Below, one piece after another: positions 24,550 through 53,500 of a DNA stretch of 64,000 nucleotides. Below the pieces are notes generated by a model, which saw nothing but the letters and a program-made list of their open reading frames with translations, ran no database searches and was not told where the DNA came from. Source of the stretch: Prosthecobacter fusiformis (GTDB lineage Bacteria; Verrucomicrobiota; Verrucomicrobiia; Verrucomicrobiales; Verrucomicrobiaceae); assembly GCF_004364345.1 (NCBI RefSeq), contig NZ_SOCA01000002.1, forward strand, positions 571,711-635,710, in the 5' to 3' direction. A program made the translations under genes and the position numbers. Numbering within the stretch: position 1 is the stretch's first letter; the number at the start of each line of letters is the position of its first letter.

Positions 24550-24575
24550 TATTGCAATATGTCCGCATTAGGACA
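24550..24575. promoter_or_regulatory. candidate XRE operator at the mcrB start
   Basis: Two adjacent dyads: TATTGCAATA (24550-24559), a perfect 10-bp palindrome, and TGTCC-gcatta-GGACA (24560-24575). They lie between the divergent XRE and McrB-like genes and overlap the first possible McrB start codon. Confidence 0.4.
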
Positions 24576-26390: not shown

Positions 26391-27841
26391 TCAAGTCACT
26401 GAGCCAGATCTTGAGCGACGGGACTTTGGTGGACAACACGCATCACCAGGCAGTTCTGGGAGTCTTCCAGTCGGGATGGCGTCAAGAAAAGGTAGAGATT
26501 AGACAGGGACGCACTGCGAATAATCCAGCGGCTGTGTGGCCACTTTTGCAAAGCGCTGCCAACCTCCAGATCGACCCAGCTAACATTGTTCTGCGTTCTC
26601 CACAGGCTGACTACGAACACAACACGGATGATCCGTTGATCGCCCTGAGTGGATTCGATCCTCTGAATTTCAGCCTCACCACAGGAAACCTCATTGGCTC
26701 CATCAAGTCGGGAGGCCACACCCTCCGCATCTCAAGCCGCTTTGGCGACGAGTTCCTCCGCTACATCATCGCAGACGCCGATGGGTTTGCCGAGATCCCA
26801 GAACAGGGTGGAACGGCCAAAGGAGGTTACGAATGGCTGCTGAATTACTTTTGGCTGATCAAGCTGAAGAAGGCGTTTCGCTTGGGAATGCCGAAATCGT
26901 ATGAAACCCGCAAAGAATCCCTGACGCAGGTGCGAGGACGGATGGATCCAATCGATTGCCATTTGAATCAGTCGAGGGCTCGCTTTGCCTGTACCTACCG
27001 CGAGCACAGCTATAATAATCCAGCAACTCAGCTCATAGCCCGCACTCTTGAGGATCTGGATGCACGCTCAGGTCTTCACGGCCTGCATTCTCTCAAGCAG
27101 ACTTTCCAGACGGCCACAGGAGGTCGTCGTCATCCTCTGCAAACACTGCTTGCAGCACCTCCCATCCGAAACCCTTACTATGCCGATTACAATCCGGTCA
27201 TGGACCTGGCCAAGCGCATCTTGAAAGGTGATCTGGCCGATGTAGGTCACAACAATCAGACCAGCGCTCTCCTGTTTGATGTCTCGATGCTGTTTGAGTA
27301 TTTCATACGAAAGCTGCTTCGCAAAGCGGGCATGCAGTTGCATGACAAAGCGACAAGCAAGTGGTCCATTTCCCCAGGCATTCCTCACGCCCGCCGAGCG
27401 CTGATCCCGGACCTCGTTTTTGAGCATAAGGGCCGAACTTTTGTGTTTGATGTCAAATACAAGAACTTTCATTTCGACGGGAGAAGCCCCGGTGTGAATC
27501 GAGAAGATCTCTTCCAACTGCACACCTACGTCGGACAGGCCACGAACCATTTTGATGTCGGGGGCTGCGGTTTGATTTACCCGGTGAGGGAATCGCAATG
27601 GCATCGCCAAAACCTCGCTACTACCGGAGGTATTCTCACCAGCACAATCAGGCAAGGAGGTCGGGACATTCCTTTGCACGTCGCCTTCGTCATGGTGCCC
27701 GAGCGTGGGGATGTTCCAGAATCTGAATGGGGACAGGTGTTTCAGAGGCGCTTTCAGACGAGCATTGATACCTTTTTGGATTGTTTTTGTAGCAATATTT
27801 TCGGGGCATTCCACATCGGCCAGAGAGGCGTGTGGGGGTAA
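26387..27841 (+). CDS. mcrC: McrC-like endonuclease subunit
   Basis: 484 residues from a GTG that overlaps the mcrB stop (GTGA). The McrC family pattern is clear: YEWLLNYFWLIKLKKAF, QVRGRMDPIDCHL, then LLFDVSMLFEYFIRKLL and the PD-(D/E)XK nuclease core with IPDLVFEH (D342) and FVFDVKYKNF (D355, K357). McrC cuts DNA when bound to the McrB ring, usually at modified cytosines; the modification recognised depends on the unrecognised McrB N-terminus. The pair forms a complete type IV restriction unit. Confidence 0.9.
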   Translation: MIKSLSQILSDGTLVDNTHHQAVLGVFQSGWRQEKVEIRQGRTANNPAAVWPLLQSAANLQIDPANIVLRSPQADYEHNTDDPLIALSGFDPLNFSLTTGNLIGSIKSGGHTLRISSRFGDEFLRYIIADADGFAEIPEQGGTAKGGYEWLLNYFWLIKLKKAFRLGMPKSYETRKESLTQVRGRMDPIDCHLNQSRARFACTYREHSYNNPATQLIARTLEDLDARSGLHGLHSLKQTFQTATGGRRHPLQTLLAAPPIRNPYYADYNPVMDLAKRILKGDLADVGHNNQTSALLFDVSMLFEYFIRKLLRKAGMQLHDKATSKWSISPGIPHARRALIPDLVFEHKGRTFVFDVKYKNFHFDGRSPGVNREDLFQLHTYVGQATNHFDVGGCGLIYPVRESQWHRQNLATTGGILTSTIRQGGRDIPLHVAFVMVPERGDVPESEWGQVFQRRFQTSIDTFLDCFCSNIFGAFHIGQRGVWG

Positions 27842-33508: not shown

Positions 33509-36370
33509 ATGTCTCAAACTCTCTCCCGACAGCCCGGCACACTCGTCCGCATCCGTGAACGCGACTGGGTCGTGCAGCCTTCGGAGAATGCCGATCTTCT
33601 CATGGTCAAGCCACTCGGTGGCTCCGATGAGGAACTCACAGGCATCTTCCTTCCTCTGGCTGAAGGTGCCGATACTCCCCGTGATGCCGAGTTTCCTTGT
33701 CCAGGAAAGGATGATCTCGGAGACTTTGCCCGCGCCCGTCTGCTGTATGATGCCGCCCGTCTTGCCTTTCGCAGCGGCGCGGGGCCATTCCGTTCTCTTG
33801 CCAGGATATCATTCCGCCCGCGCAGCTACCAAATGGTGCCCCTGGTCATGGCATTGCGTCAGGAAACTGTGCGTCTGCTCGTCGCTGATGATGTCGGTGT
33901 CGGTAAAACTATCGAGGCCCTCCTGATCGTGCGCGAGCTTTTGGACCGCCGCAAAATGCGCCGCTTTGCTGTCGTCTGTCTGCCTCATCTTTGTGACCAA
34001 TGGCAACAGGAAATACGCGACAAGATCGGCGTCGAGGCCGTGGTCATTCGGTCGAATACGCAGGCCCGTCTGGATCGCGAAATCCAGGGAGACACATCCG
34101 TCTATCAGTATTACCCGTTTCAGGTCCTCTCGATTGATTACATCAAGCAAGACTCCCGCAAGGCTACCTTCATCAATGAATGTCCTGAGCTGGTGATCGT
34201 GGACGAAGTTCATACCTGCGCCCGCCCACAGGGAGCCGCCGCTTCTCAGCAGCAGCGCCATGCTCTAATTAAAGCAATCGCGGCCAAGCAGGGCCAGCAC
34301 CTCATCATGCTTTCCGCCACCCCCCACAGCGGAAAGCCGGAGGAGTTCGGCTCTTTACTCGGCCTAGTAGATCCATCTTTTGAAAATCTCGATGTCGCTA
34401 CCGCATCTCAGCCAGAGCGTCAGCGGCTTGCCCGTCACTTTATCCAACGTCGTCGTCAAGACGTTGAGCGCTGGATGAATGAAGACACCCCATTCCCAAA
34501 ACGCGATTCTGGCGAGTTCGACTATGACCTGTCAAAACCCTACCTCACGTTCTTCGATAAGGTGCTGGACTTCGCACGCAACCTCGTCGCTGGCGATGAA
34601 TCTTCCGAACGCCAGCGACGCGTCCACTACTGGACAGCGCTCGGCCTCCTGCGAGGCGTCATGTCCAGTCCGGCGGCTGGTGTCGCCATGTTCCGGGCTC
34701 GGCGTTCCAAGCTCGGGGATGACCTCCTGCCGGATATCGAAGCAGATGATCCCAGCCCCGTCCACGATCACCCTGAGGGACACGAGTCCGATCTTGCCCC
34801 GGTCGAGGTGGTCGAGAGCACTGGTTGGTCTGAGTCTCAGCAACGCCGAATGAGGGAGTTCGAGAAGGAACTCGCCAGCCTCACAGGGCCGAGGTTTGAT
34901 CACAAGCTAGAAGCCGCTCGCATGATCATTGAAGACTGGCTTCAGCTAGGCTTTTATCCAGTGATCTTCTGCCGCTACATCCAAACAGCAATTTATTTGG
35001 GCGAGCAGCTTAAGCCATTGCTCGCCAAAAAATTTCCCAAAGCTGCCGTTGAAGTCGTCACCTCCGAAGATCCTGACGAAGTCCGCCGCGACCGCATTGC
35101 GGCCATGGGTGCCTACCCTCAGCGGGCCCTGATCGCCACCGACTGCCTTTCTGAAGGCATCAACCTTCATGAGCACTTCACTGCGGTTCTCCACTATGAT
35201 CTGCCCTGGAACCCGAATCGCTTGGAGCAGCGTGAAGGGCGTGTGGACCGCTTTGGTCAGCGGGCCAAAGAAGTGAAAGCCTACCTCCTCTTCTCCAAGG
35301 ACAGCGCCGTGGATGGCGTCGTGCTGGACGTCATTCTGCGTAAAGTCCGCGAAATCAAAAAAGCCACAGGCATCAATGTCCCGTTCCCCGAGGATAGCAA
35401 AGGCATCATCGACACCATCACCCAGTCTCTGCTGCTCAATCCCGACAGGAAAATCAGCACCAGGCGGTCGGACGCGAATCAGATCGAATTCAATTTCGAG
35501 GAATTCAACGAGGCTCAAAAACTCGAACTCGAAGTCTCCGACAAATACAAAAAGGCCGCTGACCGTGCCAGCCAGAGCCGTTCCATCTTCGCCCAGCACG
35601 CCATCAAGGCGGAGGAGATCGAGCAAGACCTTCGTGAAAACGATGAGGCCATAGGCTCCCCTCAAGTTGTGGAAAATTATGTGGTGGTGGCACTACGTTC
35701 GCTGTTCGGCGTGCAGATTGACCGCGAGATAAATGGCTACCTGCTCTACACGGCCAACCTGCCACCAAGCGCTAAGATACTCTTGCCAGCTAAAGCTTCC
35801 GTGAAGGTGTCTTTCGAGTCTCCCACGCCTGAAGATCACATCTACCTCGGGCGCAATCATCCCCTCGTCGAGCAGCTTTGCCAGATAACTCTCGCCCGCA
35901 GCATCGAGAGGCATCGCAGCCGTGCCGCACGGACCGCCGTGCTCCGCACCACTGCTGTGGAAAAACCCACCACACTCCTCATGTTCCGCTGTCGGAATGT
36001 CATCGAGGAAAAGCGCGCTAGCGGACAACAGCTCGTGGCCGAGGAAATGCTGCTTTGGGGATATCGCGGTTCTTTGGATGATCAGGACTTTTTATCCACC
36101 TCAGAGGCTCAGCGACTACTCTCAACTGCTACGCCCTCAGGTGATTTCTCGCCAGAGCGCTCCGCACGTTTGATCACCGATCGAGTTGAGACTCTGAGCG
36201 ACCTTCGCCCCGCCTTTGACCAGCTCGCCGAGCAGCGTTGCCAGCACCTTGTCGAAGCCCACGAACGCTTTTCTAGTCTTGTCGAAAAGAAACGCTTCGG
36301 CGTTGTCTATCCCGTCCTCCCCATGGACGTCCTCGGCATTTACGTGCTCATGCCCACGCAAGGAAACTGA
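33509..36370 (+). CDS. SNF2/RapA-like helicase (DISARM DrmD-like)
   Basis: 953 residues. SNF2 helicase motifs are complete: Walker A LLVADDVGVGKTIEA near 125-138, VVCLPHLCDQW, DEVH box LVIVDEVHTCARP near 230, LSATPHSGKPEEF, and the second lobe with TDCLSEGINLHEHF and RLEQREGRVDRFGQR. The ends (1-90 and 640-953) are specific to RapA-like proteins used in defence loci. DrmD of class 1 DISARM is of this kind and accompanies an adenine methylase; here the methylase is two genes downstream. The protein should move along or remodel double-stranded DNA. It lies 6 bp after the DUF1998 helicase gene. Confidence 0.88.
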   Translation: MSQTLSRQPGTLVRIRERDWVVQPSENADLLMVKPLGGSDEELTGIFLPLAEGADTPRDAEFPCPGKDDLGDFARARLLYDAARLAFRSGAGPFRSLARISFRPRSYQMVPLVMALRQETVRLLVADDVGVGKTIEALLIVRELLDRRKMRRFAVVCLPHLCDQWQQEIRDKIGVEAVVIRSNTQARLDREIQGDTSVYQYYPFQVLSIDYIKQDSRKATFINECPELVIVDEVHTCARPQGAAASQQQRHALIKAIAAKQGQHLIMLSATPHSGKPEEFGSLLGLVDPSFENLDVATASQPERQRLARHFIQRRRQDVERWMNEDTPFPKRDSGEFDYDLSKPYLTFFDKVLDFARNLVAGDESSERQRRVHYWTALGLLRGVMSSPAAGVAMFRARRSKLGDDLLPDIEADDPSPVHDHPEGHESDLAPVEVVESTGWSESQQRRMREFEKELASLTGPRFDHKLEAARMIIEDWLQLGFYPVIFCRYIQTAIYLGEQLKPLLAKKFPKAAVEVVTSEDPDEVRRDRIAAMGAYPQRALIATDCLSEGINLHEHFTAVLHYDLPWNPNRLEQREGRVDRFGQRAKEVKAYLLFSKDSAVDGVVLDVILRKVREIKKATGINVPFPEDSKGIIDTITQSLLLNPDRKISTRRSDANQIEFNFEEFNEAQKLELEVSDKYKKAADRASQSRSIFAQHAIKAEEIEQDLRENDEAIGSPQVVENYVVVALRSLFGVQIDREINGYLLYTANLPPSAKILLPAKASVKVSFESPTPEDHIYLGRNHPLVEQLCQITLARSIERHRSRAARTAVLRTTAVEKPTTLLMFRCRNVIEEKRASGQQLVAEEMLLWGYRGSLDDQDFLSTSEAQRLLSTATPSGDFSPERSARLITDRVETLSDLRPAFDQLAEQRCQHLVEAHERFSSLVEKKRFGVVYPVLPMDVLGIYVLMPTQGN

Positions 36371-36388: not shown

Positions 36389-36955
36389 ATGGCACGTTCA
36401 TACATCCATAACTCTACATGGTTGCTTCCCGACAAGTTTTCGAAGCCTATGCAGAAGGTTCGAGAAGCTGCCAGACAGCTCAAAGCATCTGCTGGCCACG
36501 AATTCCTCAGATTCACCCTTGATGGTCATCTTGTTGGCGATCTTGGCGTGGCAATTGCAGAGCACTTTTTTGCGATCAAACTGCATGATTCCCATCGAAC
36601 GGGTCACGATGGCACGCTCGAATCGAAAGGAACAATTGAGTCCGTTGAAATCAAAATCCGTCGGGAATCAACGGGTATATGGTTCGATTCGGAGCCTGAA
36701 CACATTATTGCCTTCCGCCTCGAAGATGCGGATTCTCGTGTCACGCTGGTTTATGCGGGACCCGGTTCAGTGCTGCGGGAAATTCGTCCCAACGCCGTAA
36801 TCGCCAAGACTGTTCCCACAAATGTTGATGCGAAAATTCATAAGTTTACCGCACGCCAAACCGTCTCACTCAATCAATTAGCAAAGCACTTCACATATGA
36901 GGACTTCATGAAGAATCCTTCTATCCCCTTCCGCAATCAGCCCATTGTTGCCTGA
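36389..36955 (+). CDS. small PD-(D/E)XK-like protein
   Basis: 188 residues. The segment GDLGVAIAEHFF ... GHDGTL ... VEIKIRR has the order Glu, Asp, E-x-K expected of a restriction-endonuclease-like fold (E in AIAEHF, D in TGHDG, E-x-K in VEIKI). Downstream TLVYAGPGS is like the small DUF6998-type proteins found beside methylases. If active it would be the DNA-cutting or nicking subunit of the array; it may instead be a recognition subunit. It sits 18 bp after the SNF2 helicase and 6 bp before the methyltransferase, so it is certainly part of the same transcription unit. Confidence 0.72.
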   Translation: MARSYIHNSTWLLPDKFSKPMQKVREAARQLKASAGHEFLRFTLDGHLVGDLGVAIAEHFFAIKLHDSHRTGHDGTLESKGTIESVEIKIRRESTGIWFDSEPEHIIAFRLEDADSRVTLVYAGPGSVLREIRPNAVIAKTVPTNVDAKIHKFTARQTVSLNQLAKHFTYEDFMKNPSIPFRNQPIVA

Positions 36956-36961: not shown

Positions 36962-39900
36962 ATGCTTCACCCCTCCATCCGCCTTGAAGGCTCCATCCTT
37001 TCTGCTGACATCCTCGATGCTATTGAGCGGGGGGAGCGTTCGCATCAGATGCCCAGGGATTTCGGACTCGATCCCACCACCAAGGTCAAGGATGAGATCG
37101 CCGATGCCTGGGCCGCCGCCCGCGCCTTCTGGGCCGTCTATCAGGTGAAAATTTCCCGGCTCAAACCCGGAGCCACCGGCACCACTGAGACCCGTAATCA
37201 ATGGCTCGTTCCTCTGCTAGGCCTGCTCGGCTACCAGCTCAACCTTGCCGATTCAGAGATCCTCCAAGGAAAAACCTACCGCATCTCCCACCGCGATCCC
37301 GCGCGTGATCAACTCCCCGTCCACCTCATCGGCTGGCACGAGTCGCTTGACCGCCGCAGCACCGTACCCAACGCCCCACGCATGTCCCCACATGGGCTGG
37401 TTCAGGAGTACCTCAACCTCACCGAGCACCTCTACGGCATCGTTTCTAACGGCCGCCTGATCCGCCTGCTCAGGGATTCCCCCCGCCTCGTCAAACTCAC
37501 CTTTATCGAGTTCGACCTCGAACGCATCTTCACTGAGGAACTATTTGCGGACTTCGCCCTCTTCTACCGCCTGCTCCATGCCTCCCGCATGCCCGTTCGG
37601 CAGGACGCCGTCGCCGAGGCACCAATTGAAATCTATCACCAGGACTCCCTCGACTCCGGCTCTCGCATCCGGGACGGCCTCAGCACCGCCGTTCATCGCG
37701 TTATCCTCGATCTCGCCAACGGCATGCTCAACCACCCGGCCAACCACCACCTCCGGGATCTGGCTGCTAACGATCCCCACGAGCGCTTCGCTGCCGACTT
37801 CTACACCCACCTCCTCCGCCTCATCTATCGCCTTCTCTTCCTCATGGTCATTGAGGAACGCGGCCTCGCCCATCTCCCTAAAACCGACAAGCGTCTCCTT
37901 GAAATCTATGACCTCGGCTACTCGCTCACCCGCTTGCGCCGCCTATCCGAAAAGCCCCACTTCGGCGACGCTCGCCACTGTGATGCCTGGCTAGCCCTCA
38001 TCGCCCTCTTCCGCCTCGTGGATGAATCGGGAAGGGGGCTCAAACTCGGCGTCGCCCCGCTTGGTGGCGATCTCTTCAATCATGGCACGCTCGGGGTGCT
38101 GGAAGATTGCTCGCTCGACAACGCCACCTTCCTCGGGGCTCTCCGCCAGCTCACCCTTTTCACCAATCCAGTCACCCGTCAGCTCATGCGGGTCAATTAC
38201 GGTGCCCTCAATGTGGAGGAATTCGGCTCCGTCTATCAGAGCCTGTTAGAGTTCAAACCCCGCGTGACCGGAATCAACGGCAAATGGCACTTCGCCTTCG
38301 CGCAAGGTGATGACCGCGCTGCAACCGGCTCCCACTACACCGAGGACGAACTCGTCCAGCCCCTCCTCAAGCACTCCCTCGATCACCTCATCGCGGACAA
38401 ACTTAAACAACCCGATCCAGCCGCTGCCCTTCTTTCCCTCCGCGTTGCCGATATTGCCTGCGGCTCCGGCCACATCCTGCTCGCCGCCGCCCGCCGCATC
38501 GGCATGGCCCTCGCCATTGTTCGCACCGGCGATGACCAACCCAGCCCCGCCGCCCACCGCGAGGCCGTCCGCGATGTGATAAAGCGCTGCATCTACGGCG
38601 TGGATCTCAATCCCCTCGCGGTCGAACTCTGCAAAGTCGCCCTCTGGTTGGAAGCCCACGTCCCCGGCGAACCCATCGGCTTCCTCGACCACCATATCAA
38701 ATGCGGCAACGCCATCGTCGGCTTCGTCACCCGCGACGAACTCGACAAAGGCATTCCCGACGAGGCCTTCAAGACCCTTCCTGGCGACGACAAGGACATC
38801 GCTGCCGCCTTCCGGAAAACCAACAGAGCCGAACGCAAGGAACGAATTACCGGCCAGAAGCAACTCATGCTTGCTCCCGAGCTTCAGGAGAAACTCGACG
38901 CCGTCCTCGCTCGCATGACGGAACTATCCGCCATGCCCGAGCAAACCCCCGCCGAAATCGCCGTCAAGAAACAGCGCTACGCCACAACCCAATCCCAGGA
39001 AGCCGAGTTACTCGGCCAGATCGCCGCCATCCCCGTCGCCCAGTTCTACCAACCGAAAACCGCCGGCAACAAAGCCAACCTCATCACAGACGCCACCTTC
39101 CGTCACTACCTCGCCGGCCACACCCCGCAAGGCCAGGCCACCGCATCAGCTTGGGCACTCGCCGAACGCAAAAAAGCCTTCCACTGGTTCCTCGAATTCC
39201 CCGACATCATCGCCAATGGCGGCTTCGACTGCATTCTGGGAAACCCTCCCTACCTCGGCGGCCAAGCCCTCAGCGGGACCTACGGCCATGCCTTCTGCGA
39301 ATATGTGAAGTGGCAATATGCCCCCACCGGACTCAGTGAATTACTCGTCTTTTTTCTCCGCCGTATTTTCACCATTCTTCGCCCCAATGGCTTCACCGCC
39401 TTCATCACCACCAACTCGATCAAGGATGGCGACGTGCGGAAGGATGGCTTGGAACAAGTGATTGCCGCAGGCGGCACCATCAACATGGCTGTGCGCGGCA
39501 TTAAATGGCCGGGCGTTGCAAATCTCGTCGTCTCCATCGTTTCCATTCATCGCGGCAATTGGAAGTCTCAGTGCTACCTCGACGGCAAATCGGTGGAATT
39601 AATCAGCGCATTCTTCGAGGACTCCCAAGACGGTGGCGAGCCTGTGAAACTCGAAGAGAATGAGAAGAAAATCTTCCAAGGTTCGATCTTTCTCGGAGAA
39701 GGTTTTCTTCTCTCTCACGAAGTGGCAGACACTTTGCTGAAGAATTCTGCTAAAAACGCGGAGGTGATTTTTCCGATTCTCAATGGCCAAGAAATCAACA
39801 GCTATCCAGATCAGAAGCCCGAACGAAAGATTATCAATTTTCGAGACTGGCCGATAGAGAGAGCGAGCGATTACTCAGAACCATTCGCAAAAATCGAACG

Positions 39901-41359
39901 GGATGTAAAACCGGTTCGAGAGAAATCAAATCGTCAAACCCGCAAAGACCGCTGGTGGCAATATGCCGAGAGAGCGACTGGTTTATATACAAGAATTGGT
40001 AATCTTGATCGATGCTTCGCCGCTGCCGTGGTAACAAAGCACCTGTCATTCTCCACTGTTCCCACCGATATAGTTTTCACTCACAAGCTATACGTCCTCA
40101 CCAGCGACCGATGGGATCTCTTTTCAGTGATTCACTCGACGATTCACGAGATATGGGCCAGGAAATTCAGTGGGACACTCGAAACCCGACTGAACTACTC
40201 ACCCTCTGAGTGCTTTTTGACCTTCGCCTTCCCCGCCGGGCAGTGGCAGCACCCCGACCCGGACCTAGCCGCCATCGGCGAGCGCTATCACGAGCACCGC
40301 CGCGACCTCATGCTCCGCCTCTGGCTCGGCCTCACCGACATTTACAACCTCTTCCACGCCCCCGATCTCGACGCGCGCCTCGACAAGCTCTTCCAGAAGC
40401 GCGCCAAGGCCGGCGATTGGCAGCGCGCCGAAAGCGTCCCATCTGAACACCGCGCCACCGCCGGCTGCCTCACCCCTGAACAAGCTAACACCGCCATCAT
40501 CGAGCTCCGCGCCCTCCACCGCCAGCTCGACCAAGCCGTTCTCACCGCATACGCCTGGCACCAACCCGGCCCCGACGGCCCCGCCATTGATCTAGCCCAC
40601 GACTTCCAACAAGTCGAAACCCTCCCCGAAAACGACCGCACCCGCTACACCATCACCCCCCAAGCCCGCAAAGAACTCCTCAAACGCCTTCTCACGCTCA
40701 ATCACCGCCGCGCCGAAGACCAAAGGAATTCAGGATCCGCAAATGCAAAACCTGCACCATTCGCCAAATCGACGAGCAAAGCAACCAAATCTCAGGAACC
40801 ACAACTCAACCTCGACATCTTCAATGTCCCTGCGCTCACGCCCGCAACACCTGCAATGGCATCATTTGCTTCGTCTTATCCTGTCACATTGGCAGACAGC
40901 TTCTTCTGCTCCATTACTTTGGCGATGCTCGATTGGTCTGACGCTATCTCAGCATCCGATCATCTCGATGCACTAATCCTCATCACTGATGTCAATCTTT
41001 GTGACACTCTTTTCTCGCCAGGGTTGACACCGGAAAACAAGCGCCTCTTAAAATCCATCTCAAAAGAGGCTGATATGGCCAGGAGGGACGGACTCAAATG
41101 GTCAACATGTCTCCATTACCTCCAGCACCGTAAAGCGGTCACGGTCGACCAAAATACCCCACGGATCATTTGCAAGGGGACGGAATTCATCACGGTTCAA
41201 AAATCCCTGCCCAGTGCCAAGAGCGCGATTGCTGTTCTGGCTCTCGCGGTAGTCCGAAATCTCAACGAGATCAGGAATCACCACGATCTCACACCGGTTC
41301 AAAGAGCCGCCTTTGCCAGCTTCAATAAAATCCACGACGAAATCTACGCTGCGGCTTAA
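36962..41359 (+). CDS. large Eco57I-type N6-adenine DNA methyltransferase (DISARM DrmMI-like)
   Basis: 1465 residues. A long N-terminal region (1-480) precedes SAM motif I [15 protein letters not shown] (about 495), [20 protein letters not shown], and the catalytic [10 protein letters not shown] (about 758). A TaqI-like recognition segment (about 800-1080) and a helical C-terminus follow; the last 200 residues look like a separate domain. It should methylate adenine in a specific site to mark self DNA. The composition changes sharply inside the gene: GC-rich to about 39340, clearly AT-richer at 39560-40200, GC-rich again to 40720, then lower to the end. This suggests the recognition segment and tail were exchanged. 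The helicases upstream would be the attacking partners. Confidence 0.88.
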   Translation: [1465 protein letters not shown]

Positions 41360-41370: not shown

Positions 41371-43449
41371 ATGAGCATCCTCGCCCAAATTTCGCAGTCG
41401 CCAATCAAGGCCTCACCCGAAGTGTGGATTCACAAGATCGGCCTTCTGAGCCGAATTGTTCCTGAACCCGAGTTCATTCGCGAGACCATCACCCTTCGCA
41501 AGGGGCTCAATATCATATGGGCTGAGGAGCCAGAGTCAGCAGAAGCCGGAGGCGACATTGCCGGCCACAGCGCTGGGAAAACAACCCTATGCCGGATTAT
41601 TCGCTACATTCTCGGGGAAAAGACCTTCTCCAACAAAGCTAACACGCATGCTGTCAAAAAGGCATTCCCGAATGGCTACGTCGCCGCAGAACTCTACGTG
41701 AAGGGGCAGCTTTATGCTGTGCTTCGGCCCCTGGGTGAAAATCGCAACTCCTACGTTCTAAAGGGGGGCACAATGGAACAAGTGATCAAAGACAAGGGCG
41801 AAGTGGCCTATCAGGAAAACTATCCAGTGAAACTCGGATTAGCTCAGCTTATTGATGATTTTCCGACCGGCACCGTTGTTCGAACTAACGAGCCCATACA
41901 GTGGGGCCATATTCTCGCATGGTGCGCTCGTGACCAAGAAGCACGTTTTCAAAATATCCATGATTGGCGCTCGTCCCGTAGCGAATCTGACTGGCCATCT
42001 TTTCGTTTCCCCAAGTCGGATCCACTATTTGTCATGCGAGTCGCATTGGGTCTGTTCCTTCCTGATGAGTTAAAATCGGAAGAAAGTCTCGCTGAAATTT
42101 CAAGGCAGCTAGCTAACGCGGAATCAGAGTTTGAACGAGCGAAACGCGAACCTGAATACTGGCGAGATCACCTCACTGACAAGCTTAGAAAGGAGTTGAT
42201 CAAGTACGCGCCTAACCGACGAACAGAAATCCAAGAAGCTCCATTACAGGGGGAAGGTCTTTTCCCAGACCTGAAGCGACTAACAGCTAAAACTGCATAT
42301 GAATTAGGAGAGAAGCAAGACACTGAGGAGGAGCAGATCAAGGTCATCGACACCCAAGCCAAGGATCTCCTAGAACAGACCGTGCAGATAAAAAGTGAAA
42401 TCAAACAACTGCAGGCACTTTTTCAAGTGGACACGAGAGCAGCATTAGAACTCAAGAAGGAGCTAAATGCTCATGAGACCGCAAAAAAGCAAATTGATGA
42501 GGCTAAGTTTCTAATGTGTGGATACGGCCACCTTTTAGTGGGTGAATGTGCTCATGTAAAAAATCGTCAAATGCTTCTTTCGGGGAAACCGATGCCTAAT
42601 GAAGTTTTGAGTCCTGAAGATCTAAAAGCTCGCGAGGCGGAACGCAAAAAGGTTGAAAATCAAATTTCAGGCCTCGACCGAGTCATTAAAGCCAAGGAAT
42701 TCGAAAGTGATGGACTCGCCAAGCGGAGGGAGGAGATTAAAACTTCAATAGAGACGCGAGGTAGACTCTTGACTGACCTGCAAGAGTGTTTAGAAGACTT
42801 GATCACTTGGTCAGAGCGTGCTTCGAGCCCACTCAAATTTGAGAAGCTAAAGCATAAAGCAATAGAAATAGAAAAACTAAAACTCAGTATCACCGCTAAG
42901 CAGGTAGCACTGAATGAGCTGATTGCAGAGCATGATAGCAATAGGGATTTACTGTCGCTGATTTTCTCTGCGTCTGCCAAAGCAGTGTTGCCGTCTTCAG
43001 CCTACGATGGGGTTGTGAAATTCCAAGATCGTGAGCTTAATTTTCAGATTACCAAGAAGGGTACAATGAGTGGTGAGGCAATGGAGACCTTGGCGGTCTT
43101 GCTTGGTGACCTAAGCTGCTTGATCTACAATTCTCTCTCCGAAAAGTCTCACCTGCCCGGCATTATGATCCACGACAGTCCACGGGAAGCTGATTTGGGA
43201 CTTAGACTGTACCACAGTTTCATCCGCTTCGTTGCCAAACTGGACCAATCGTTCACAGAGAAGACCGGTTGTCCGTTTCAATACATTCTTACGACCACCA
43301 CTCCGCCTCCCGACACCTTAAAAAAATCGGATGCGGTGCGTCTGCAACTGGACGCATCCAAGCCGGGCGGACTGCTTTTTAGGACCGATCTGTCCTTTGT
43401 AGGCCAGGAATCAGACCTACTGTCGGGCCAGCCACAGCCTTTGTCCTAA
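41371..43449 (+). CDS. SMC/Rad50-like ABC ATPase with coiled coil
   Basis: 692 residues. Walker A AGHSAGKTTLCRIIRYILG lies near 64-82. Long charged helices form a coiled coil (about 230-330 and 400-500), and Walker B PGIMIHDSPREADLG lies near 597-611, the DSPRE form of DUF2326-like and related ATPases. A segment at about 383-396, CGYGHLLVGECAH, lies where the two coiled-coil arms turn and has two Cys and two His, like a zinc hook. SMC-like proteins bridge or sense DNA in several defence systems. It starts 11 bp after the methyltransferase. Composition is AT-richer than the upstream genes. Confidence 0.8.
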   Translation: MSILAQISQSPIKASPEVWIHKIGLLSRIVPEPEFIRETITLRKGLNIIWAEEPESAEAGGDIAGHSAGKTTLCRIIRYILGEKTFSNKANTHAVKKAFPNGYVAAELYVKGQLYAVLRPLGENRNSYVLKGGTMEQVIKDKGEVAYQENYPVKLGLAQLIDDFPTGTVVRTNEPIQWGHILAWCARDQEARFQNIHDWRSSRSESDWPSFRFPKSDPLFVMRVALGLFLPDELKSEESLAEISRQLANAESEFERAKREPEYWRDHLTDKLRKELIKYAPNRRTEIQEAPLQGEGLFPDLKRLTAKTAYELGEKQDTEEEQIKVIDTQAKDLLEQTVQIKSEIKQLQALFQVDTRAALELKKELNAHETAKKQIDEAKFLMCGYGHLLVGECAHVKNRQMLLSGKPMPNEVLSPEDLKAREAERKKVENQISGLDRVIKAKEFESDGLAKRREEIKTSIETRGRLLTDLQECLEDLITWSERASSPLKFEKLKHKAIEIEKLKLSITAKQVALNELIAEHDSNRDLLSLIFSASAKAVLPSSAYDGVVKFQDRELNFQITKKGTMSGEAMETLAVLLGDLSCLIYNSLSEKSHLPGIMIHDSPREADLGLRLYHSFIRFVAKLDQSFTEKTGCPFQYILTTTTPPPDTLKKSDAVRLQLDASKPGGLLFRTDLSFVGQESDLLSGQPQPLS

Positions 43450-43480: not shown

Positions 43481-45781
43481 ATGAACTATTATCGGGACCT
43501 GCTGGCCTCCGCCTTTGGCGTCCTTTCCGGCAACAACACTCCGAAGATCATGGCCCTCGTGACCTCAGCCGAAAGATCTTCGGGCACGAACGAGACGTTG
43601 AACGAGCCGTGGCCGGTGGGCTTTCTGAGTGCGTCTCTGCCTCCGGGTACAAACATTCAATGCCTTGAGGGCGGAGAGTCCTTCATAAATGACGCAACTT
43701 CGGCGGTTGGCATATCAAAAGAAAAAAATGTGTTCGCGTTTCCACCACTTTTAGGAGGCCCCAGAATGACTGCGGAGTGGCATGATCGCTTCGGAAGACT
43801 GGATATCGCGGGTGCTTTGGCCGAAACCCTCATGAATCAGACAGATGACGGACGGCAGGTCGAAGTCCTTGCCATGCTGGTTCCAACGCACTTTTTGAGT
43901 TCGTTACGGTCCAGCTCCTGGCGCAAAGAATTCTTTCCAGCTCACAGCGCAGTCGTGATCGAGCATGAACACGATGACGTGCCTGCGGCACTGGGACTTC
44001 CGTTTCACAGTGCGGTCCGGCTTACCACGGTCTTCTTTCGACGACAACCTGGCCCCATTCGATTTTTCAAGATCACGACTGAAGCCCTTGCTGAACCTCC
44101 TCAACGTCTGGCGTCCGCTTTGCAATCACTGATCAAGCAGCCGGCTGGAAAGAACCGTTTAGGCTACGTCTATAAGGGCCAACTAGAGGATGGCTATCCA
44201 TGCAGCCATGACTATTACTCAGAGGAAACCGAAAGGCTCCGCCAGGAAATCGGGGTGCTTGGTCAGCGCGTAGCGCTGAAATCTGTTGCCGATGTATTAA
44301 TGGGCCTGAGACCGTGCAATCCAGACCAGCTACCCGGAAATGGCGAGGTCGGCCTACTTACGATTCGTGCCGCCGACATCACGCGAGATGGGCGGGTGGA
44401 TCTATCTGATATTCAGCCTTACATCCGCCCGGCTATTGTTCGGCACTACCTAAAAGATGGTGATTTCTGCATTCGCAGCATTTATCAGGGAGACACAGGT
44501 TTTGTCGTGGGAGTTTTTGAAGGAGATGGGCGGCCAGTTACTTTCGGGCACTCCGTCATTGTGGTGCGTCCCCATGCCAGCCTTAATTCTGCACAGCGTC
44601 AGGTGCTTTTGAGTTTTCTCCGTTCTCCGCTGGCCCATCGCCTGGGCAACGCCAAGCAGGTGATGTCCAGCATGGCAGGTAGGTACCGGGTGTCGCCCCA
44701 TGTATTGTGTGAATTCCCTGTGCCTATCGCAGATGAGGAACTTGTCTCCAGCATTCAACAGCTCAACGACGCCAGAATGGCCTTCACAAAGTGGATTAGC
44801 CACATTGATGAGGAATCCAACGCCATATTGATTGAATCAACCGCACATGGATCGCGCAGCCGCCTCTTGAACGCAGGGCAATTAGCCCGCCAAAGACACC
44901 GGGCAGGCGAGCAGGTGGAAGAATTCGACTATCGCGTCCGAACGCAGTTTCCACATCCACTGGCTTATGTCTGGAGAGAACTGCAGGTAGCAGGCGCTGA
45001 TCGCTACCACCGGTTTAGGGCCGTCACGAAAGCTGCGGAAGGCCACACCTGTTTCCTGGCCTTGATTGCAGTTCTAATGAGCCGTGCGGCAGGCCAACCC
45101 ATCAAGTATGTTGGAGAGATCGCGAAACGGCTCTCTCAAAGACGCAGCGGCACCAATTTCGGCGACTGGTTTGCCATCCTCGAGGAGGTTAATGAAGGCA
45201 AAACATTCCGTGGACTCAAAGGCAGCAGTCCCTTTGTCGAATTGACACAACTCAGTGCCAATGGAACTTGGGAGCAAGCGATCAGGCATTTGATGGCCCT
45301 GCGAAACGATGACAGCCATGGACGAATTGCACCGGCCAGCGTCTCCGCAAATCTTCTCACGGAGGCCGAGAAGTCGCTCGAAACTGTTTATCGTGCCACT
45401 GAGTTCCTGACAGACTATCAGCTTCTTTTCATCACGGACACGCAGTTAGATTCACTCCGACAAATCAACCGGTTTCAGTACCGGGACCTCACAGGAGACA
45501 ATGCACTGGCTCAATTACGTGAAGATCAATCATCACGGGCCGACCTTGAAAAAAACAGCCTGTACCTGCGGGACCGCCAGAAGAACCTCCATCTTTTCCG
45601 GCCTCTGCTGCAATATTTGGAGTGTCCTGAGTGCCATCAGTTGTCCACCTTCTTCCTCGACACCTACGACCCGGCTTCTGGCGGCAGTGCCGTGGGACTG
45701 AAAAGCTTTGAGAGAAACTCCGTGCGCACCGAGCCTATCGCCGAGGACTTCCGGCATGTGGGGCTTTTGCCCACAATATGA
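43481..45781 (+). CDS. methyltransferase-like/HsdS-TRD-like/HEPN-like fusion
   Basis: 766 residues, not a family I recognise as a whole. Residues about 85-230 resemble the second half of an N6 methylase (FAFPPLLGGP where NPPF/Y is expected, then LVPTHFLSS), but SAM motif I is missing and the catalytic Asn is Phe, so it should be inactive. Residues about 260-430 resemble a type I specificity (HsdS) target-recognition domain (VGLLTIRAADITRDG, LKDGDFCIRS, RPHASLNSAQR, CEFPVPIADEELV). Residues about 520-660 contain LRNDDSHGR, an R-x4-H motif (R608, H613) of HEPN type. CPEC near 715 suggests a zinc ribbon. It starts 31 bp after the ATPase gene and may give the array its site specificity. Confidence 0.72.
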   Translation: MNYYRDLLASAFGVLSGNNTPKIMALVTSAERSSGTNETLNEPWPVGFLSASLPPGTNIQCLEGGESFINDATSAVGISKEKNVFAFPPLLGGPRMTAEWHDRFGRLDIAGALAETLMNQTDDGRQVEVLAMLVPTHFLSSLRSSSWRKEFFPAHSAVVIEHEHDDVPAALGLPFHSAVRLTTVFFRRQPGPIRFFKITTEALAEPPQRLASALQSLIKQPAGKNRLGYVYKGQLEDGYPCSHDYYSEETERLRQEIGVLGQRVALKSVADVLMGLRPCNPDQLPGNGEVGLLTIRAADITRDGRVDLSDIQPYIRPAIVRHYLKDGDFCIRSIYQGDTGFVVGVFEGDGRPVTFGHSVIVVRPHASLNSAQRQVLLSFLRSPLAHRLGNAKQVMSSMAGRYRVSPHVLCEFPVPIADEELVSSIQQLNDARMAFTKWISHIDEESNAILIESTAHGSRSRLLNAGQLARQRHRAGEQVEEFDYRVRTQFPHPLAYVWRELQVAGADRYHRFRAVTKAAEGHTCFLALIAVLMSRAAGQPIKYVGEIAKRLSQRRSGTNFGDWFAILEEVNEGKTFRGLKGSSPFVELTQLSANGTWEQAIRHLMALRNDDSHGRIAPASVSANLLTEAEKSLETVYRATEFLTDYQLLFITDTQLDSLRQINRFQYRDLTGDNALAQLREDQSSRADLEKNSLYLRDRQKNLHLFRPLLQYLECPECHQLSTFFLDTYDPASGGSAVGLKSFERNSVRTEPIAEDFRHVGLLPTI

Positions 45782-45805: not shown

Positions 45806-47236
45806 ATGGCACGCAAACCTTTCCATCGGGCATCATTCGACGATCTGAACATTAGCCCCTATCAATCGGCCTTGGTCAGAGAATGTGAGATTTGCAAGTG
45901 TCAATACACCATCGACGCCCATGAACCTTGGGAGTGGGCGGGAGGTGTAACATCGTTTGCCAATTTCGAGTGCTGTGAACACTGGTGCCTCGCCTGCACA
46001 CTCGGAGTAGGCCCGACCGATTTTCCTGAATCCTATCCCGAAGAGGAGAGTGCAGCAGAACTTGATCCGACCGATGAAGCCGCTGTTGCAGAGCAAGCCA
46101 GAGGAAACATCGCTGCTCTCCAGATCGGACCAAGGTATGAAGATTGGGCAGATGACCGCACAGACGAGGTTTATGCAGCCCAGTGTCGTGGAGACATCCT
46201 GAAAGCTTATTCCTTCTTCACGGATCAGGGCATTACACTGATCATCATGCCACTGAATCGGGCTATCAGTGACCGCTCGGTTCACTACCCCAACGGCATC
46301 ACCTATTACCCTCCTGGCACGCCAAATCTCGATGGCCTGGATCATCTAGACCAAGTGGCAGACCCAGATGATCATGATCGAGCAATGCGCTTGTCCGAAT
46401 ACGCGGGAGCGAACCTCGGCAATCTCAGACAGCACGCACTGCTGGTTTTTCCCGCAACCCTGAATCCTCAGCTCATCGCGAAAGCAGATCACGATGTTCA
46501 TCTCGATCTCATTCGCCGCATTTCAGAAGAGGTGGACAAGGTTTGCCTCAACTTTGTGCGCTACTACAGTTGCAAACTGGAAAAGCCTCATGCCATTCCT
46601 GCACGGGCGGGCCAGACGGAGTCGGACCCGGCCATGAGTATTTGCCTCGTTTATGATCCCGCGAAAAAGACGTCCCGAATCTACGGGGGAGCAGCATTCC
46701 CATTCGCTTTCACAGGCGGAATCGGCATCTGGCTGCGACAGCCCGAGTGGCAAAGATTCCCAGGCGAAGGGGAGGTAGGCAAGATCGTGTATCACGCACT
46801 CACGCTCTATGCCACCATGCTGGAATCCAGCAGCGATACTAACCGGTTTATTCAGGCACTTTCACTGTTGGAATTTCTAGCCTTCCCCAGCGGCTATGCA
46901 AAAATGGTGGAGGTCAAGAAAGTCATTGCGCGTTACGTCGCGACAGATCAAGCCTCCTATAATTCCGTTCTCGAACGATTTCGTGAACTAACCGCAAATA
47001 AAGACCCCGTTTCAAAAATCGAGTCGGGCCTGCGCACCCGCGTGATTCATATCGGTGACCGGATCGAATCGCTGATCCCAAATCCCAGAGACCGGCGGAA
47101 GCTATTTGTGGAGCTGGACGGTTATATACGCCCGGTGATCGATCACATGATTCTCCACTCCGAACTCGGGTTTGATGAATATTCCGAGATCCGCAAAACC
47201 TTGCCTGCATTCTTACAGCAGACTTTGCCCTCCTGA
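45806..47236 (+). CDS. zinc-finger protein with HEPN-like C-terminus
   Basis: 476 residues. The N-terminus has clustered Cys (CEICKC at 27-32 and ECCEHWCLAC near 54-64), probably zinc-binding. The middle is unrecognised. The C-terminal 140 residues are helical, with GLRTRVIHIGDRIE: R-x4-H at about 409-414 in the place and style of the Apea-type HEPN motif (R-x4-6-H), typical of ribonucleases that cut host RNA in abortive defence. It starts 24 bp after the fusion protein gene, and the array's continuity ends after it in insertion-sequence debris. An RNA-cleaving effector role is inference from one motif. Confidence 0.68.
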   Translation: MARKPFHRASFDDLNISPYQSALVRECEICKCQYTIDAHEPWEWAGGVTSFANFECCEHWCLACTLGVGPTDFPESYPEEESAAELDPTDEAAVAEQARGNIAALQIGPRYEDWADDRTDEVYAAQCRGDILKAYSFFTDQGITLIIMPLNRAISDRSVHYPNGITYYPPGTPNLDGLDHLDQVADPDDHDRAMRLSEYAGANLGNLRQHALLVFPATLNPQLIAKADHDVHLDLIRRISEEVDKVCLNFVRYYSCKLEKPHAIPARAGQTESDPAMSICLVYDPAKKTSRIYGGAAFPFAFTGGIGIWLRQPEWQRFPGEGEVGKIVYHALTLYATMLESSSDTNRFIQALSLLEFLAFPSGYAKMVEVKKVIARYVATDQASYNSVLERFRELTANKDPVSKIESGLRTRVIHIGDRIESLIPNPRDRRKLFVELDGYIRPVIDHMILHSELGFDEYSEIRKTLPAFLQQTLPS

Positions 47237-48471: not shown

Positions 48472-49824
48472 CTAGGCGCAAGCAGAGGTAAACGTCACTC
48501 TTAGATTCGGATCTGAAGTCCCCAGATAAAGTTCATGACCCAGCAGGTTTGACATGTCGAGGACGGTTGCATCAACAAGAAGGACATCCCAGTTTGTTGA
48601 GCCCTCCTTGAACTCAAGAGTCTGCCCACGCAGTTCTTGCCAAGGCATACCGTATGGTTTTATCAAAACGACCAAGTCTGCACTGTTGCTAAAACCAGAG
48701 GCTTCCCATGTCAGCGTCCAGTGACTTCCTGCTTCCACACTGACTTGTATCCAGTGAACACTCAGCGGCCAAGTTTTACATTCCCATTCCAAGTTGCCTT
48801 CCCCCGGTACAACTCTCAGTTCTATCCGAAGGCTCGGCAGCCGAGGTGGAAAACGACGAGCTATGGCCTCCGCAGTGCTCCCAGGGACAGGGATAATCAG
48901 CGTCTTGCAGAAATTCAGCCATTCATTCTTCAGGGTGGTCTGGTTATCGTTCAGGATGACATCAAGGGCTTTCCACGGCCCCTTCGTCAACGCGGCGGTA
49001 TTCGTATCTGAAATGGAAGGCCCTGATCTCATTCCGGGTCTGCACCAGATTTCGCGGTGAATCCCCTGACAGGTGGATTCCAAATGTTCCATGAAAGGGA
49101 AAGTCCAGTATGGACTCGGACTCAGACGGGAAATGTTACCCACACCGGTGATTCCAAGAGGAGCACAGCGGAGGAAATCAGGTCCATAATCAAGATACGA
49201 AGCGGTATTTTTAGCTGCGCCAACTTCTGCAAAGACTGCACTCATTTCTGCCAGAGAGAGCCAGTGTGGCTCCATGAGGGTGTCATTCAATGCGATGAAC
49301 TGCCAAACGTGCTCCAGTTCGTGGGTCAATGCCGAGCACAGCCAATCTTTTTCTTGCTCGACCGAACGCAGAGGTTGGGGCAACTCGATGCAGACCAGAA
49401 ACTCGAAGCAGTCTCGCTCATCATTAAAATGCGGCATTGTGAACGCCTCACTGGTTTCACCCGTGACGAACTTCATGACTGGACCGATGACAACCAGCAG
49501 CTCAAACTTGACGCCGTTCGTCTCCGAAAGGAGTCCAAGATGAGCAGCCCCCCAGTTACTCAGGACGTCCTTCGCTGCCACCACCAGTTCTTCTCGCACA
49601 CCGATCCAAACCTGAGAATGGAATTCAGGGAGCAGTTTTGGATATGAATTCCATTTGGACGGTGGTCTGAAACTGATCAAATACTCCCCGGCGTCGGGCT
49701 TCTCTGGCACCAAGCGCATCTCGATGTTCTTACTGACTGGCTTGCTACGCCAGGGTAGGCTTGAAGTGACATGGCGAACACGCTCATGGCACCGTTTTTG
49801 CCTGTTGTTGGTTTTGGGTGGCAT
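48472..49824 (-). CDS. HExxH metallopeptidase-like protein, last gene of the sigma/STAND operon
   Basis: Start taken at the ATG at 49824 (450 residues), 8 bp after the response regulator's stop; a start at 49860 would overlap that gene. The catalytic motif THELEHVWQF (H168, E169, H172) is followed 21 residues later by a Glu in WLSLAEMSAVFAE (E193), the gluzincin arrangement of zinc ligands. Two Trp-rich beta segments (WEASGFSNSADLVVLIKPYG, GSTNWDVLLVDA) form the C-terminal third. No signal peptide is visible, so it should act in the cytoplasm. As the only enzyme-like output in an operon of sensors it is the best candidate effector. The family is not recognised beyond the zinc motif. Confidence 0.72.
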   Translation of the reverse strand: MPPKTNNRQKRCHERVRHVTSSLPWRSKPVSKNIEMRLVPEKPDAGEYLISFRPPSKWNSYPKLLPEFHSQVWIGVREELVVAAKDVLSNWGAAHLGLLSETNGVKFELLVVIGPVMKFVTGETSEAFTMPHFNDERDCFEFLVCIELPQPLRSVEQEKDWLCSALTHELEHVWQFIALNDTLMEPHWLSLAEMSAVFAEVGAAKNTASYLDYGPDFLRCAPLGITGVGNISRLSPSPYWTFPFMEHLESTCQGIHREIWCRPGMRSGPSISDTNTAALTKGPWKALDVILNDNQTTLKNEWLNFCKTLIIPVPGSTAEAIARRFPPRLPSLRIELRVVPGEGNLEWECKTWPLSVHWIQVSVEAGSHWTLTWEASGFSNSADLVVLIKPYGMPWQELRGQTLEFKEGSTNWDVLLVDATVLDMSNLLGHELYLGTSDPNLRVTFTSACA

Positions 49825-49832
49825 GGGGACAG

Positions 49833-50582
49833 CTAGTTTTTGGTGGAACGATCCCAGCAACTGAATGCCCGGAATCCGATGCGCGTAATCTTGGTTGAGA
49901 GAGTGTCATTTGGCTCAATGTCGAACAGTTCCAAGGCCCTGCCGCGTGTCGGTTCGTCCAAAGCGGGCCAGACAGTGTGCATCCGATGAATGAACTTGTA
50001 GATATTGAATCCCTCCGGAGTATTGCTTGTTCTACGTCCAATAGGCATCTCAACGGCACCCAACTCTTCGGGTAGCCACTCGCTTGCCAGTGGCTCCTTA
50101 ATCTCAGGAAAGAACAAGTCTTTGGCTAGCAGAGGGAGGTCGGATGCTTTTTTCGTGTAAAGTCCCCCACGAAAAGGAATCGGATGATCCGAACTCGGCC
50201 AGAGCGCTACCATGTCAGGATCGTCGGAATATGAAGTGATTTGCCCTATCCAACGTGCTGGAGGCTTGCCGGCTAGCGCCTGATATACACAATACTTACC
50301 CAATTCAGTGCTTTTCACAGGATCTGCTCCAGTGATGGACGGGAGAAGATAGTCCAGTAAAACAGCATCGTATGGTGAGGCTTGTTCGACGGCTGACCTG
50401 AGTAGCGACATTGCTGACTCGGCATCCTGGGCAAGTGTGAATTGGATATCGTAGTAGCTCCCAGCAAAGTCGATCAAGAACTTCATTAGTTGATCGCGCC
50501 AGATAACTTCATCCTCGACCATCAGAAGACGAAAGGCAGGCAATACAATTGAGATGTTTGTTAGTGACTCTTGTGTGTTCAT
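49833..50582 (-). CDS. response regulator without DNA-binding domain
   Basis: 249 residues. The receiver has RLLMVEDEVIW, phospho-Asp in AVLLDYLLPS, TSYSDDPD at the switch position and LYTKKAS with the conserved Lys. About 90 C-terminal residues are unrecognised and contain no helix-turn-helix, so output is probably through protein contact. It overlaps the kinase gene by 4 bases (start inside its stop) and is followed by the peptidase gene. It is presumably phosphorylated by the adjacent cytosolic kinase and could gate the peptidase. Confidence 0.82.
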   Translation of the reverse strand: MNTQESLTNISIVLPAFRLLMVEDEVIWRDQLMKFLIDFAGSYYDIQFTLAQDAESAMSLLRSAVEQASPYDAVLLDYLLPSITGADPVKSTELGKYCVYQALAGKPPARWIGQITSYSDDPDMVALWPSSDHPIPFRGGLYTKKASDLPLLAKDLFFPEIKEPLASEWLPEELGAVEMPIGRRTSNTPEGFNIYKFIHRMHTVWPALDEPTRGRALELFDIEPNDTLSTKITRIGFRAFSCWDRSTKN

Positions 50583-53500
50583 GTGTTCATTGCATTTAAT
50601 CCCATCTTTTCCATGGAGGTGCGTACAGGCATAACAAATTCAAAAACGGCACCTTTGCCAAGCTCCCCTATTTCGCGAACACTTCCACCGTGCGCCTCAA
50701 TGACTCTCCGAACATAGGCAAGTCCTAACCCTCGCCCGTTAGTGTTTGCCGCGTTGCGAAAAGATCTTCCGTCAAAAATTCGCTCTTTAATATCCCCTGC
50801 CACACCACAGCCATTGTCTGCATAGCGCAAAACGACAGACTCTTGATCATTCAAAAAGACCGACTGTAATGACAAGACGATACTCAATTCTGCATCCTTC
50901 CTTACAAAATCACGTGAGTTGTATGCGAGCTCGATAAAGACATTCGCCAAGTGATTCCTGTCCCAAAGTCCATTTACTTGCCGGGGGATGCTCTCCCAGC
51001 ACCACTGCCCGTCGTTCGTAACGACGATGCGGAGTGCTCCCTCGACAATCTTTGAAAGGTCAGATTGCTCAAGATGAAGTCTGACTTCACCGATTCGATC
51101 TTTAAGTCTTCGCACAGAATTGCGCGCTTGATCGTGAAATGCTTCAAGATCATCATTTATGGGTTTCAGTTCCGGCAACTTTGCCTCGCGGAGACGGTAA
51201 CGGGCTATAAAGGCGGCAAATGGACTGATCTGGCTCAATAAATTATGGGCGGTCGTCCGAAGCGCCTGTTCATGGGCATCCACGACGATCATCTTCTGTC
51301 GTATCTCCTCCCGGCTAACTCTATCGAGCAATCCCCCCAAAACCACGGACAATGCACCAAGTTGCTTGGGCAACTCTGCGGGCAATTCTTCGACCGCATC
51401 AGCGGAGAAATTGATCGTCAACTTGCCTAAGACGCTTTTTTCTGAAAGCAGCGGCAGATCAATGGAGATGTCGCCCTTTTTGCGTTCGAGAACTTCAAAC
51501 TGAGATTTCCATTTTATGCAATAATACTTTAATCCTCTTAATGTGCTGCCCTCACGATCAGCCTGGCCATCGTCAGTCAATCTCAGTGCGATCGGCTCGC
51601 GTTTCCTGATGCAAAGCCAAGCGGTCTCATTGTCGGCTCCATCGTCGTCGAAATAGACCTCCCCCGCCATGAAACGTTGCTTGTGTTCTGAACTGAGTCC
51701 AAGAGAGAGTTTTCCGACAAGCCGATTGGGGCGTTCAGCGTCGCGAAGATAAAATCGCAGCTTTGCATGTTCAACGCGAAGCCATTTCTTGATCTCAGCC
51801 AAAATGAGTTCCAGAGCAGCCGAGAAATTGTTCATGCCCTCCAGCTTTCTTATCAACTCAAAGGAGTTGTAGAGAAAGGCGCGATCTCGAAAAGTTAAAA
51901 CCCACCCCCTAGGGGCACCTTCTTTGTCTGACAGTGGATGACACTCCCTCAGCCAGACACCACTCATCCTGCTAGTGATGCACTCTTCCTCTCGGCTTTC
52001 TCTTACTTTTGAAGGAGTGAGAGCTTCGCGAACTTTTGGCGTGAGTTCAAGAGAATCAAGATAAATGGGCTCCGTTTGCCATCCTGGAACGGAGAGCCGT
52101 AGTTCAAGCAAGTCACAAGCTCTCTGATTGGCGAATAGGATGCGCTGGTTGCGATCTAGAAGGAGCGATGGCGAATAATTGGCTTCAATGCTCTCTTGTA
52201 GCAGCTTGAGACGAAGCCCCTGATCCCAACTAGGTTTGATGCGTTCACTCAAGTTGCAGACAAACCTAGCATCTGCCTGACTGAATACCTCATTTTCTGC
52301 GCTCTCCAAAAGGAGAATGCCTTTGACATCCGGCAACATAATGCACGCGACCTCTCTCTTGAAGGCACTCAGTCGGGTTTGGCGTAGAACGCTGTTCACG
52401 CGATCGGCTGGAAGCAGAATGCCTTTTTGGCCACTGATACCCAACAATTGAGCGAAATGAGATGGGATCGGTATGTGAACGAAGTCGCTTCGCTTGAGCC
52501 CTGGTGCCAACGAATCGAAAAGAGGTGAAAGGGTTTCGCCCTCAGCCTGAGGGTGCCTAATCGCTAAGTAGATGATTCTGCTGACCGAACGCAGTGAACG
52601 AAGAATTGGTGGCGCTATGGCAGAGAGCACAGAATCCGTCTCCCAGGCTGCGTCCTTAGTGAGTCTCCAGAAAACCTTGAGAATCTCCTGCTCAGCCTTC
52701 TCTCGAAGCGCCCTGTCCAAGAAAAGCCGCCTCTCCCTAGCCCGCCTGTATCCCCGGAGAATACGCTGGATAGCACTAGTGCGCAGCGGGTGTTCATGCA
52801 GCGGGTCGTCCCTGCCATCAATCAATATAGCGGAAGCCGGTTTTCCATCGTGATCACGACAAAGAACCCAGTGGTATCCATCTTTGCTGGAGTGAAACTC
52901 TTCCTCTTTCGTTTCAGGTTTGGTTGCAAGCAAAGCCCATATTGAACGCACAGGCTGGGGTAGCTGCTCAATATCGCCAAGTTGGCTGGTTTTGACCCAT
53001 GCTTCCTGCCAATCGAGTGACCAGCAGCTGATCTTTTCATTAGGAATACCTGTGAGATGATTCAAAGCCTGGCGCAATTGATAACGCAAGTTAGCAATTG
53101 CCTCACCATGACCATTTGTAGCCTCACTTATTGTGCGGTGAAAGCGTATCGCGACACCATCCACAAGTCGCATGAGAGAAACGTGATCGCTGTCGGAGAG
53201 AGGGCGCACCTTTTCCTCAAACGGAAGTTCCTCGTAGAGGCGGTAGGCGTTGCCCCAGTCATGTCCAAACGCATAAAGGTCACCGATGCTGCGTCTCGTA
53301 AAATAGTCGGTGGCGAAAGATTCCGTATAGGGGCTGAACCATCTAAGCATGCCCTCTTCACGCCGGGCGAAGCCTGCAAGTTCTAACAGGTGGGGTTCCT
53401 CGCCGACATAAACTGGCTCGTGCGTCCATAGCAATTTTTCCAGATCCCCCAGCACTGCGAGGCTTTCTCTCTCGGAGTGCAAAGATAGCCTGTTAGATTC

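Follow-up and report, generated by a model that had tools for sequence, protein, structure and literature searches.

A pseudo-methylase, target-recognition and HEPN-like fusion protein in an ARMADA type I locus of Prosthecobacter fusiformis

Can a DNA-specificity subunit gate an RNase? This question is made testable by a 766-aa protein of Prosthecobacter fusiformis, encoded at positions 43481–45781 of the window, i.e., the whole stretch of 64,000 nucleotides analyzed here (contig NZ_SOCA01000002.1, positions 571,711 to 635,710). The sequence-only reading had proposed that a probably inactive methyltransferase segment, a type I specificity-like domain and an R-x4-H (HEPN-like) motif share one chain, and that this could couple site status to cell shut-down. 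The proposed reading is partly supported by our analysis: the architecture withstands both refuting conditions set for it (no HEPN helix bundle, or an R/H pair that is not conserved), and the functional coupling is a prediction.

The gene, its locus and its family

The fusion gene is the sixth of seven co-directional genes separated by short gaps:

28349–33502 (+): YprA-family (DruE-like) helicase, the first ARMADA type I gene
33509–36370 (+): BrxHII/DrmD-like SNF2 helicase of ARMADA
36389–36955 (+): DUF6998 protein
36962–41359 (+): PglX/DrmMI/MmeI-like methyltransferase with an intact NPPY, the ARMADA methylase
41371–43449 (+): LmuB-like/DUF2326-type SMC ATPase, 31 bp upstream of the fusion gene
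43481–45781 (+): pseudo-methylase/TRD/HEPN fusion gene, 766 aa (ORF, 28-member alignment, AlphaFold2 model with pLDDT 82.4)
45806–47236 (+): 476-aa protein, 24 bp downstream of the fusion gene

The operon has the gene order of ARMADA type I, that is, YprA helicase, BrxHII-like helicase and PglX-like methylase (PMC12458937), and the fusion gene lies in a defence island. An McrB-like AAA_5 protein and McrC (PF10117) are encoded directly upstream of the ARMADA locus (24552–27841), and an OLD-family protein (AAA_15 and TOPRIM; 60281–62557) is another likely defence gene. The window also contains a ParB_N domain fused to an N6/N4 DNA methylase (21561–22895, minus strand); a giant histidine-kinase-like protein (HATPase_c, 1254 aa; 48472–54343, minus strand), next to a 249-aa protein (49833–50582) and a 462-aa protein without Pfam matches; and, upstream of the island, a tRNA-Ser (17648–17737), a possible integration site.

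Searches of Pfam, PADLOC and PDB sequences give no match to the 766-aa protein, and its one NCBIfam match is below the cut-off; a PDB sequence search with the family profile yields spurious matches only. A single-sequence scan of the genome contigs finds no relative. Seven plasmid records with relatives, in Streptomyces, are found by tblastn, and an alignment including these plasmid homologues reaches 29 genome-contig loci. Almost all relatives come from Actinomycetota; one of the 29 loci is a short contig labelled as a Bacillota MAG. None is seen in viral contigs, phages or E. coli genomes. The 387 other sampled genomes of the same order and the 388 of the same phylum contain no relative either, and hence the P. 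fusiformis copy was probably acquired horizontally.

Full-length relatives are mostly about 740 aa long, and a short form (about 515–535 aa) lacks the first, methylase segment. The family alignment comprises 28 homologues (18 clusters at 70% identity), with 29 of 766 positions invariant. The full-length AlphaFold2 model built with these homologues (mean pLDDT 82.4) shows, in this order, a truncated N6-methylase fold, one target-recognition domain (TRD), a helical linker, a HEPN-like helical domain, and a beta domain with a CxxC pair. Mean pairwise identity is 34% for the N-terminal segment, 36.5% for the TRD, 54% for the HEPN-like domain, and 56% for the C-terminal domain. The sensing half (N-terminal segment and TRD) thus diverges faster than the HEPN half, as expected for a recognition module that would be under arms-race pressure.

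Methylase-like segment and target-recognition domain

The first half of the protein contains the following features:

43481–44230 (+): truncated, catalytically dead N6-adenine methylase-like segment, residues 1–250 (Foldseek; no NPPY in full-length homologues)
43739–43750 (+): F87-P88-P89-L90 at the motif IV (NPPY) position; [LVIA]P[PTLS][WFIL] in relatives
44264–44731 (+): fast-evolving HsdS/TaqI-like TRD, residues 262–417 (AlphaFold2, Foldseek, divergence, profile comparison)
44735–44920 (+): paired long helices forming an HsdS-spacer-like linker, residues 419–480 (AlphaFold2 helices 419–450 and 455–480)

Comparison of the predicted structure with HsdS and N6 methylases, suggested beforehand as a check, gives clear results: the first half matches methylase-plus-TRD structures (E from about 1e-7 to 3e-11). 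The PDB matches found by Foldseek are the VvMTase HsdM-S (7eew, 3.3e-11), CamA (about 1e-10), M.TaqI (1.7e-9) and BpuSI (6.8e-8); M.BseCI is also matched. A methylase fold followed by a TRD is the architecture of type I HsdM-S and gamma methylases, and it is found here at E values of 3e-11 to 7e-8.

The sequence-only reading had noted FAFPPLL in place of NPPF/Y and a missing SAM motif, and both observations stand. FAFPPLLGG occupies residues 85–93, no NPPF/Y is present and no SAM motif was found; the roughly 85 residues preceding the motif IV position are too few for motifs I–III. None of the full-length homologues has NPPY at motif IV, the position being occupied by [LVIA]P[PTLS][WFIL]; the [NDS]PP[YFW] motif IV and SAM motif I of an active N6-adenine DNA methylase are absent from all of them. 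With no space for motif I and with another sequence in place of NPPY in every full-length homologue, the methylase is dead throughout the family. Judged from these sequences, its inactivation is a common property of the family and not decay of the P. fusiformis copy.

The HsdS-like recognition region, also anticipated, is located by AlphaFold2 and Foldseek at residues 262–417. At E ≤ 1, none of the 28 members gives a match to Pfam Methylase_S (PF01420); among neighbouring ORFs, the best non-family protein retrieved by a TRD profile is a true Methylase_S protein, weakly (E 0.014). The predicted TRD fold is clear in the model despite the missing Methylase_S profile match. There is no sequence similarity between the TRD and those of the neighbouring methylase or HsdS. 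TRD swapping of the HsdS kind was considered and rejected, as the TRD merely diverges faster.

HEPN-like domain and C-terminal beta domain

The second half of the protein contains the following features:

44939–45418 (+): HEPN-like helical domain, residues 487–646 (domain model with pLDDT 88.2 and pTM 0.86; fold matches)
45038–45040 (+): E520, invariant acidic residue in HEPN helix 2
45302–45319 (+): R608-N-D-D-S-H613, Rx4H motif at the end of helix 3 (R and H in 28/28, N in 27/28)
45419–45778 (+): C-terminal beta domain with invariant C715-x2-C718, a possible Zn ribbon, residues 647–766

The string LRNDDSHGR, with R608 and H613, is present as reported. Shuffling the protein would still yield about 1.9 R-x4-H matches by chance, so the evidence is the conservation of the motif, not its presence. 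The 766-aa protein has 11 R-x4-6-H strings, and only R608..H613 is kept in 28/28 homologues. This check on the R/H pair, set in advance, is passed in full: R608, H613 and E520 are invariant (28/28), and N609 is found in 27/28 members, at a mean HEPN-domain identity to the P. fusiformis copy of 29.5% (range 23–33%). The position +4 from E520 is Cys524, not the Lys or Arg of the usual Ex3[KR], a full pattern that is not universal in HEPN.

Residues 480–650 were also modelled separately (pLDDT 88.2, pTM 0.86), and the layout expected of a HEPN fold is seen: helices 492–503 and 508–537, an insert at 542–593, and helices 595–612 and 623–639, i.e., two helical hairpins that make up a four-helix core, helices 2 and 3 being separated by the insert. 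Arg608 lies within helix 3 and His613 at the start of the loop, with the polar Asn directly after Arg. The helix order, the insert, and the motif at the helix 3 end and loop start correspond to the published description of HEPN (PMC3710099); an acidic residue in helix 2 also belongs to that description, and E520 agrees with it in position, with Cys at +4.

The natural PDB structures matched by Foldseek with the highest probabilities are all HEPN-type proteins: 2q00 (0.66), 7bxo (0.60), 5yjc (0.44) and 1wty (0.35). We take 7bxo to be a HEPN toxin–antitoxin, 5yjc to be Csm6, and 1wty to be HEPN-type as well. 2q00 is listed as HEPN-T in Table 1 of PMC3710099. None of the Foldseek matches to HEPN is significant: there is no E below 0.5, and the best natural HEPN has E 0.69 (range about 0.7–2.5). 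The Pfam HEPN families match none of the 28 members; HHalign against DUF4145 gives a non-significant probability of 0.5%; and the HHalign comparisons with single HEPN_RiboL-PSP and ApeA sequences and with an S23 four-helix control are not significant. The motif columns are aligned with those of DUF4145 and RiboL-PSP, while the S23 control is aligned elsewhere. A viral fold search finds nothing. Since known HEPN proteins give no individually significant match in either sequence or fold, HEPN membership rests on topology and motif. HEPN is the best reading of the modelled residues 487–646, with membership not proven.

The CPEC pair, which the sequence-only reading had listed together with the R-x4-H motif, is present at residues 715–718, in the separate C-terminal beta domain. 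Zn_ribbon_LapB gives weak matches in 10/28 members (best E 0.023).

Neighbourhoods of relatives and possible mode of action

Several relatives reside near other defence genes; the counts of neighbour types are lower bounds, as only selected neighbours were scanned. The relative in Nonomuraea (L010) adjoins ARMADA. In Rhodococcus (L023), YprA, BrxHII and a methylase precede the relative, with the methylase-to-fusion-gene order of P. fusiformis. Other relatives are found between YprA/UvrD helicases and McrBC (L031), near Wadjet (L014, L026, L035), near type I restriction-modification (R-M) systems (L024, L029), near pPIWI-RE (L013), and near NACHT-like ATPases (L015; members of the cluster also in L019 and L020). 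For most lone homologues, no methylase is encoded nearby. No conserved antitoxin partner is seen: homologues of the 476-aa neighbour do not occur beside other members of the family.

The majority of the family lies away from ARMADA, and most ARMADA loci examined have no fusion gene; it is absent from the plasmid ARMADA loci read. At its position, the ARMADA loci of Mesorhizobium, Caballeronia, Paraburkholderia and Deinococcus carry HNH or DUF262 genes or nothing comparable (HNH or DUF262 in Mesorhizobium and Caballeronia, none in Paraburkholderia). As other ARMADA loci have different genes or none at this place, the fusion gene is a mobile accessory and not a core ARMADA component.

Plasmids of Mesorhizobium, Caballeronia and Paraburkholderia carry SMC genes similar to that at 41371–43449 after the methylase, and the slot after the SMC gene (L037:16961–17731, L038:17262–19100) is occupied by an HNH nuclease, a DUF262 protein, the fusion gene, or nothing. 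The SMC ATPase, not mentioned in PMC12458937, is a possible component of an ARMADA subtype.

We lean, with reservations, towards a single-chain DNA-sensing HEPN effector. The dead, truncated N6-methylase segment and the one HsdS-like TRD would form the DNA-reading half, and the HEPN domain would be the candidate RNA-cutting half. Since HEPN RNases generally work as dimers, two chains would place two recognition domains on DNA, like a type I or IIB enzyme. The HEPN nuclease would be set free for RNA cleavage when the protein binds its site on invading DNA or, alternatively, is no longer in contact with an R-M complex of the host; the target could also be invader transcripts, cut directly. The protein would back up the ARMADA, type I R-M, McrBC or Wadjet systems next to it. 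ARMADA type II is reported to act directly, without growth arrest (PMC12458937), so any shut-down by the fusion protein would be a separate layer. Since most lone homologues have no methylase nearby, self-protection of sites is not accounted for by the sensor model. More tentatively, such a protein might confer immunity by itself, with an R-M recognition module that neither methylates nor cleaves DNA sensing a DNA sequence and thereby activating an RNase.

The main rival of a DNA-gated HEPN RNase is a PrrC-like guard, which we consider unlikely: the pseudo-methylase/TRD half would pose as a specificity subunit and dock on a methylase or R-M complex of the host, and loss of this contact, e.g., caused by a phage anti-restriction protein, would free the HEPN RNase, with the DNA sequence not being the direct trigger. 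The pair of PrrC and PrrI is a known precedent, short forms without the methylase segment adjoin type I HsdM/HsdS/HsdR (L024, L029), and the ARMADA methylase is a neighbour in P. fusiformis, L010 and L023; however, for many homologues the scanned neighbours include no methylase within 10 kb, and the TRD resembles neither neighbouring HsdS nor methylase in sequence. Slightly less credible is a non-catalytic HEPN-like module for dimerization or RNA binding, in a protein that would bind DNA as a regulator or would block invader methylation. It agrees with the lack of a significant sequence match to active HEPN families and with the proposal that the inactive methylase and TRD of DndH block invader methylases (PMC10853773), but not with the retention of Arg and His in all members and Asn in all but one, at about 30% domain identity; such invariance where a helix passes into a loop is typical of an active site. 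Very improbable is a dedicated ARMADA subunit that would add a second sequence specificity and an RNase arm here and work only with ARMADA: the tight co-directional operon, with 31 bp after the SMC gene, and the relatives adjoining ARMADA in L010 and L023, the latter with the same gene order, are offset by the majority of the family residing elsewhere and by the four genera with HNH, DUF262 or nothing comparable in this place.

Returning to the DNA-sensing effector, a close parallel is DndH (PMC10853773), which similarly combines a TRD, a methylase fold with eroded SAM and [SDN]PP[FYW] motifs, and a nuclease in one chain; however, it has a DNase (REase) and HerA/FtsK, whereas the fusion protein has a candidate HEPN RNase in a far smaller chain. 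PrrC and RloC with type I R-M (PMC3710099) also couple a HEPN RNase to R-M as a second line of defence, but they sense through an ABC ATPase instead of a pseudo-methylase/TRD. Type IIG enzymes (BpuSI), M.TaqI, CamA and the VvMTase HsdM-S share the fold of a methylase followed by a TRD; here, in contrast, the methylase is truncated and dead, there is no REase, and HEPN-like and beta domains follow at the C-terminus. The description of ARMADA type I mentions neither HEPN nor HsdS, and in type II a GajB-like helicase carries a RelE-like RNase domain (PMC12458937).

The pseudo-methylase/TRD/HEPN fusion is not described in the literature searched, mostly outside subscription journals, and the family has no entry in the Pfam, PADLOC and NCBIfam libraries used. 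The 2013 survey found HEPN in R-M systems fused to endonucleases, helicases and ATPases, not to methylases (PMC3710099); this family breaks the rule, although its methylase is dead. If the proposed sensing holds, restriction-type self/non-self recognition would be coupled directly to RNA cutting or cell shut-down, and the fusion protein may contribute an RNA-directed layer in some neighbourhoods of ARMADA, type I R-M and Wadjet.
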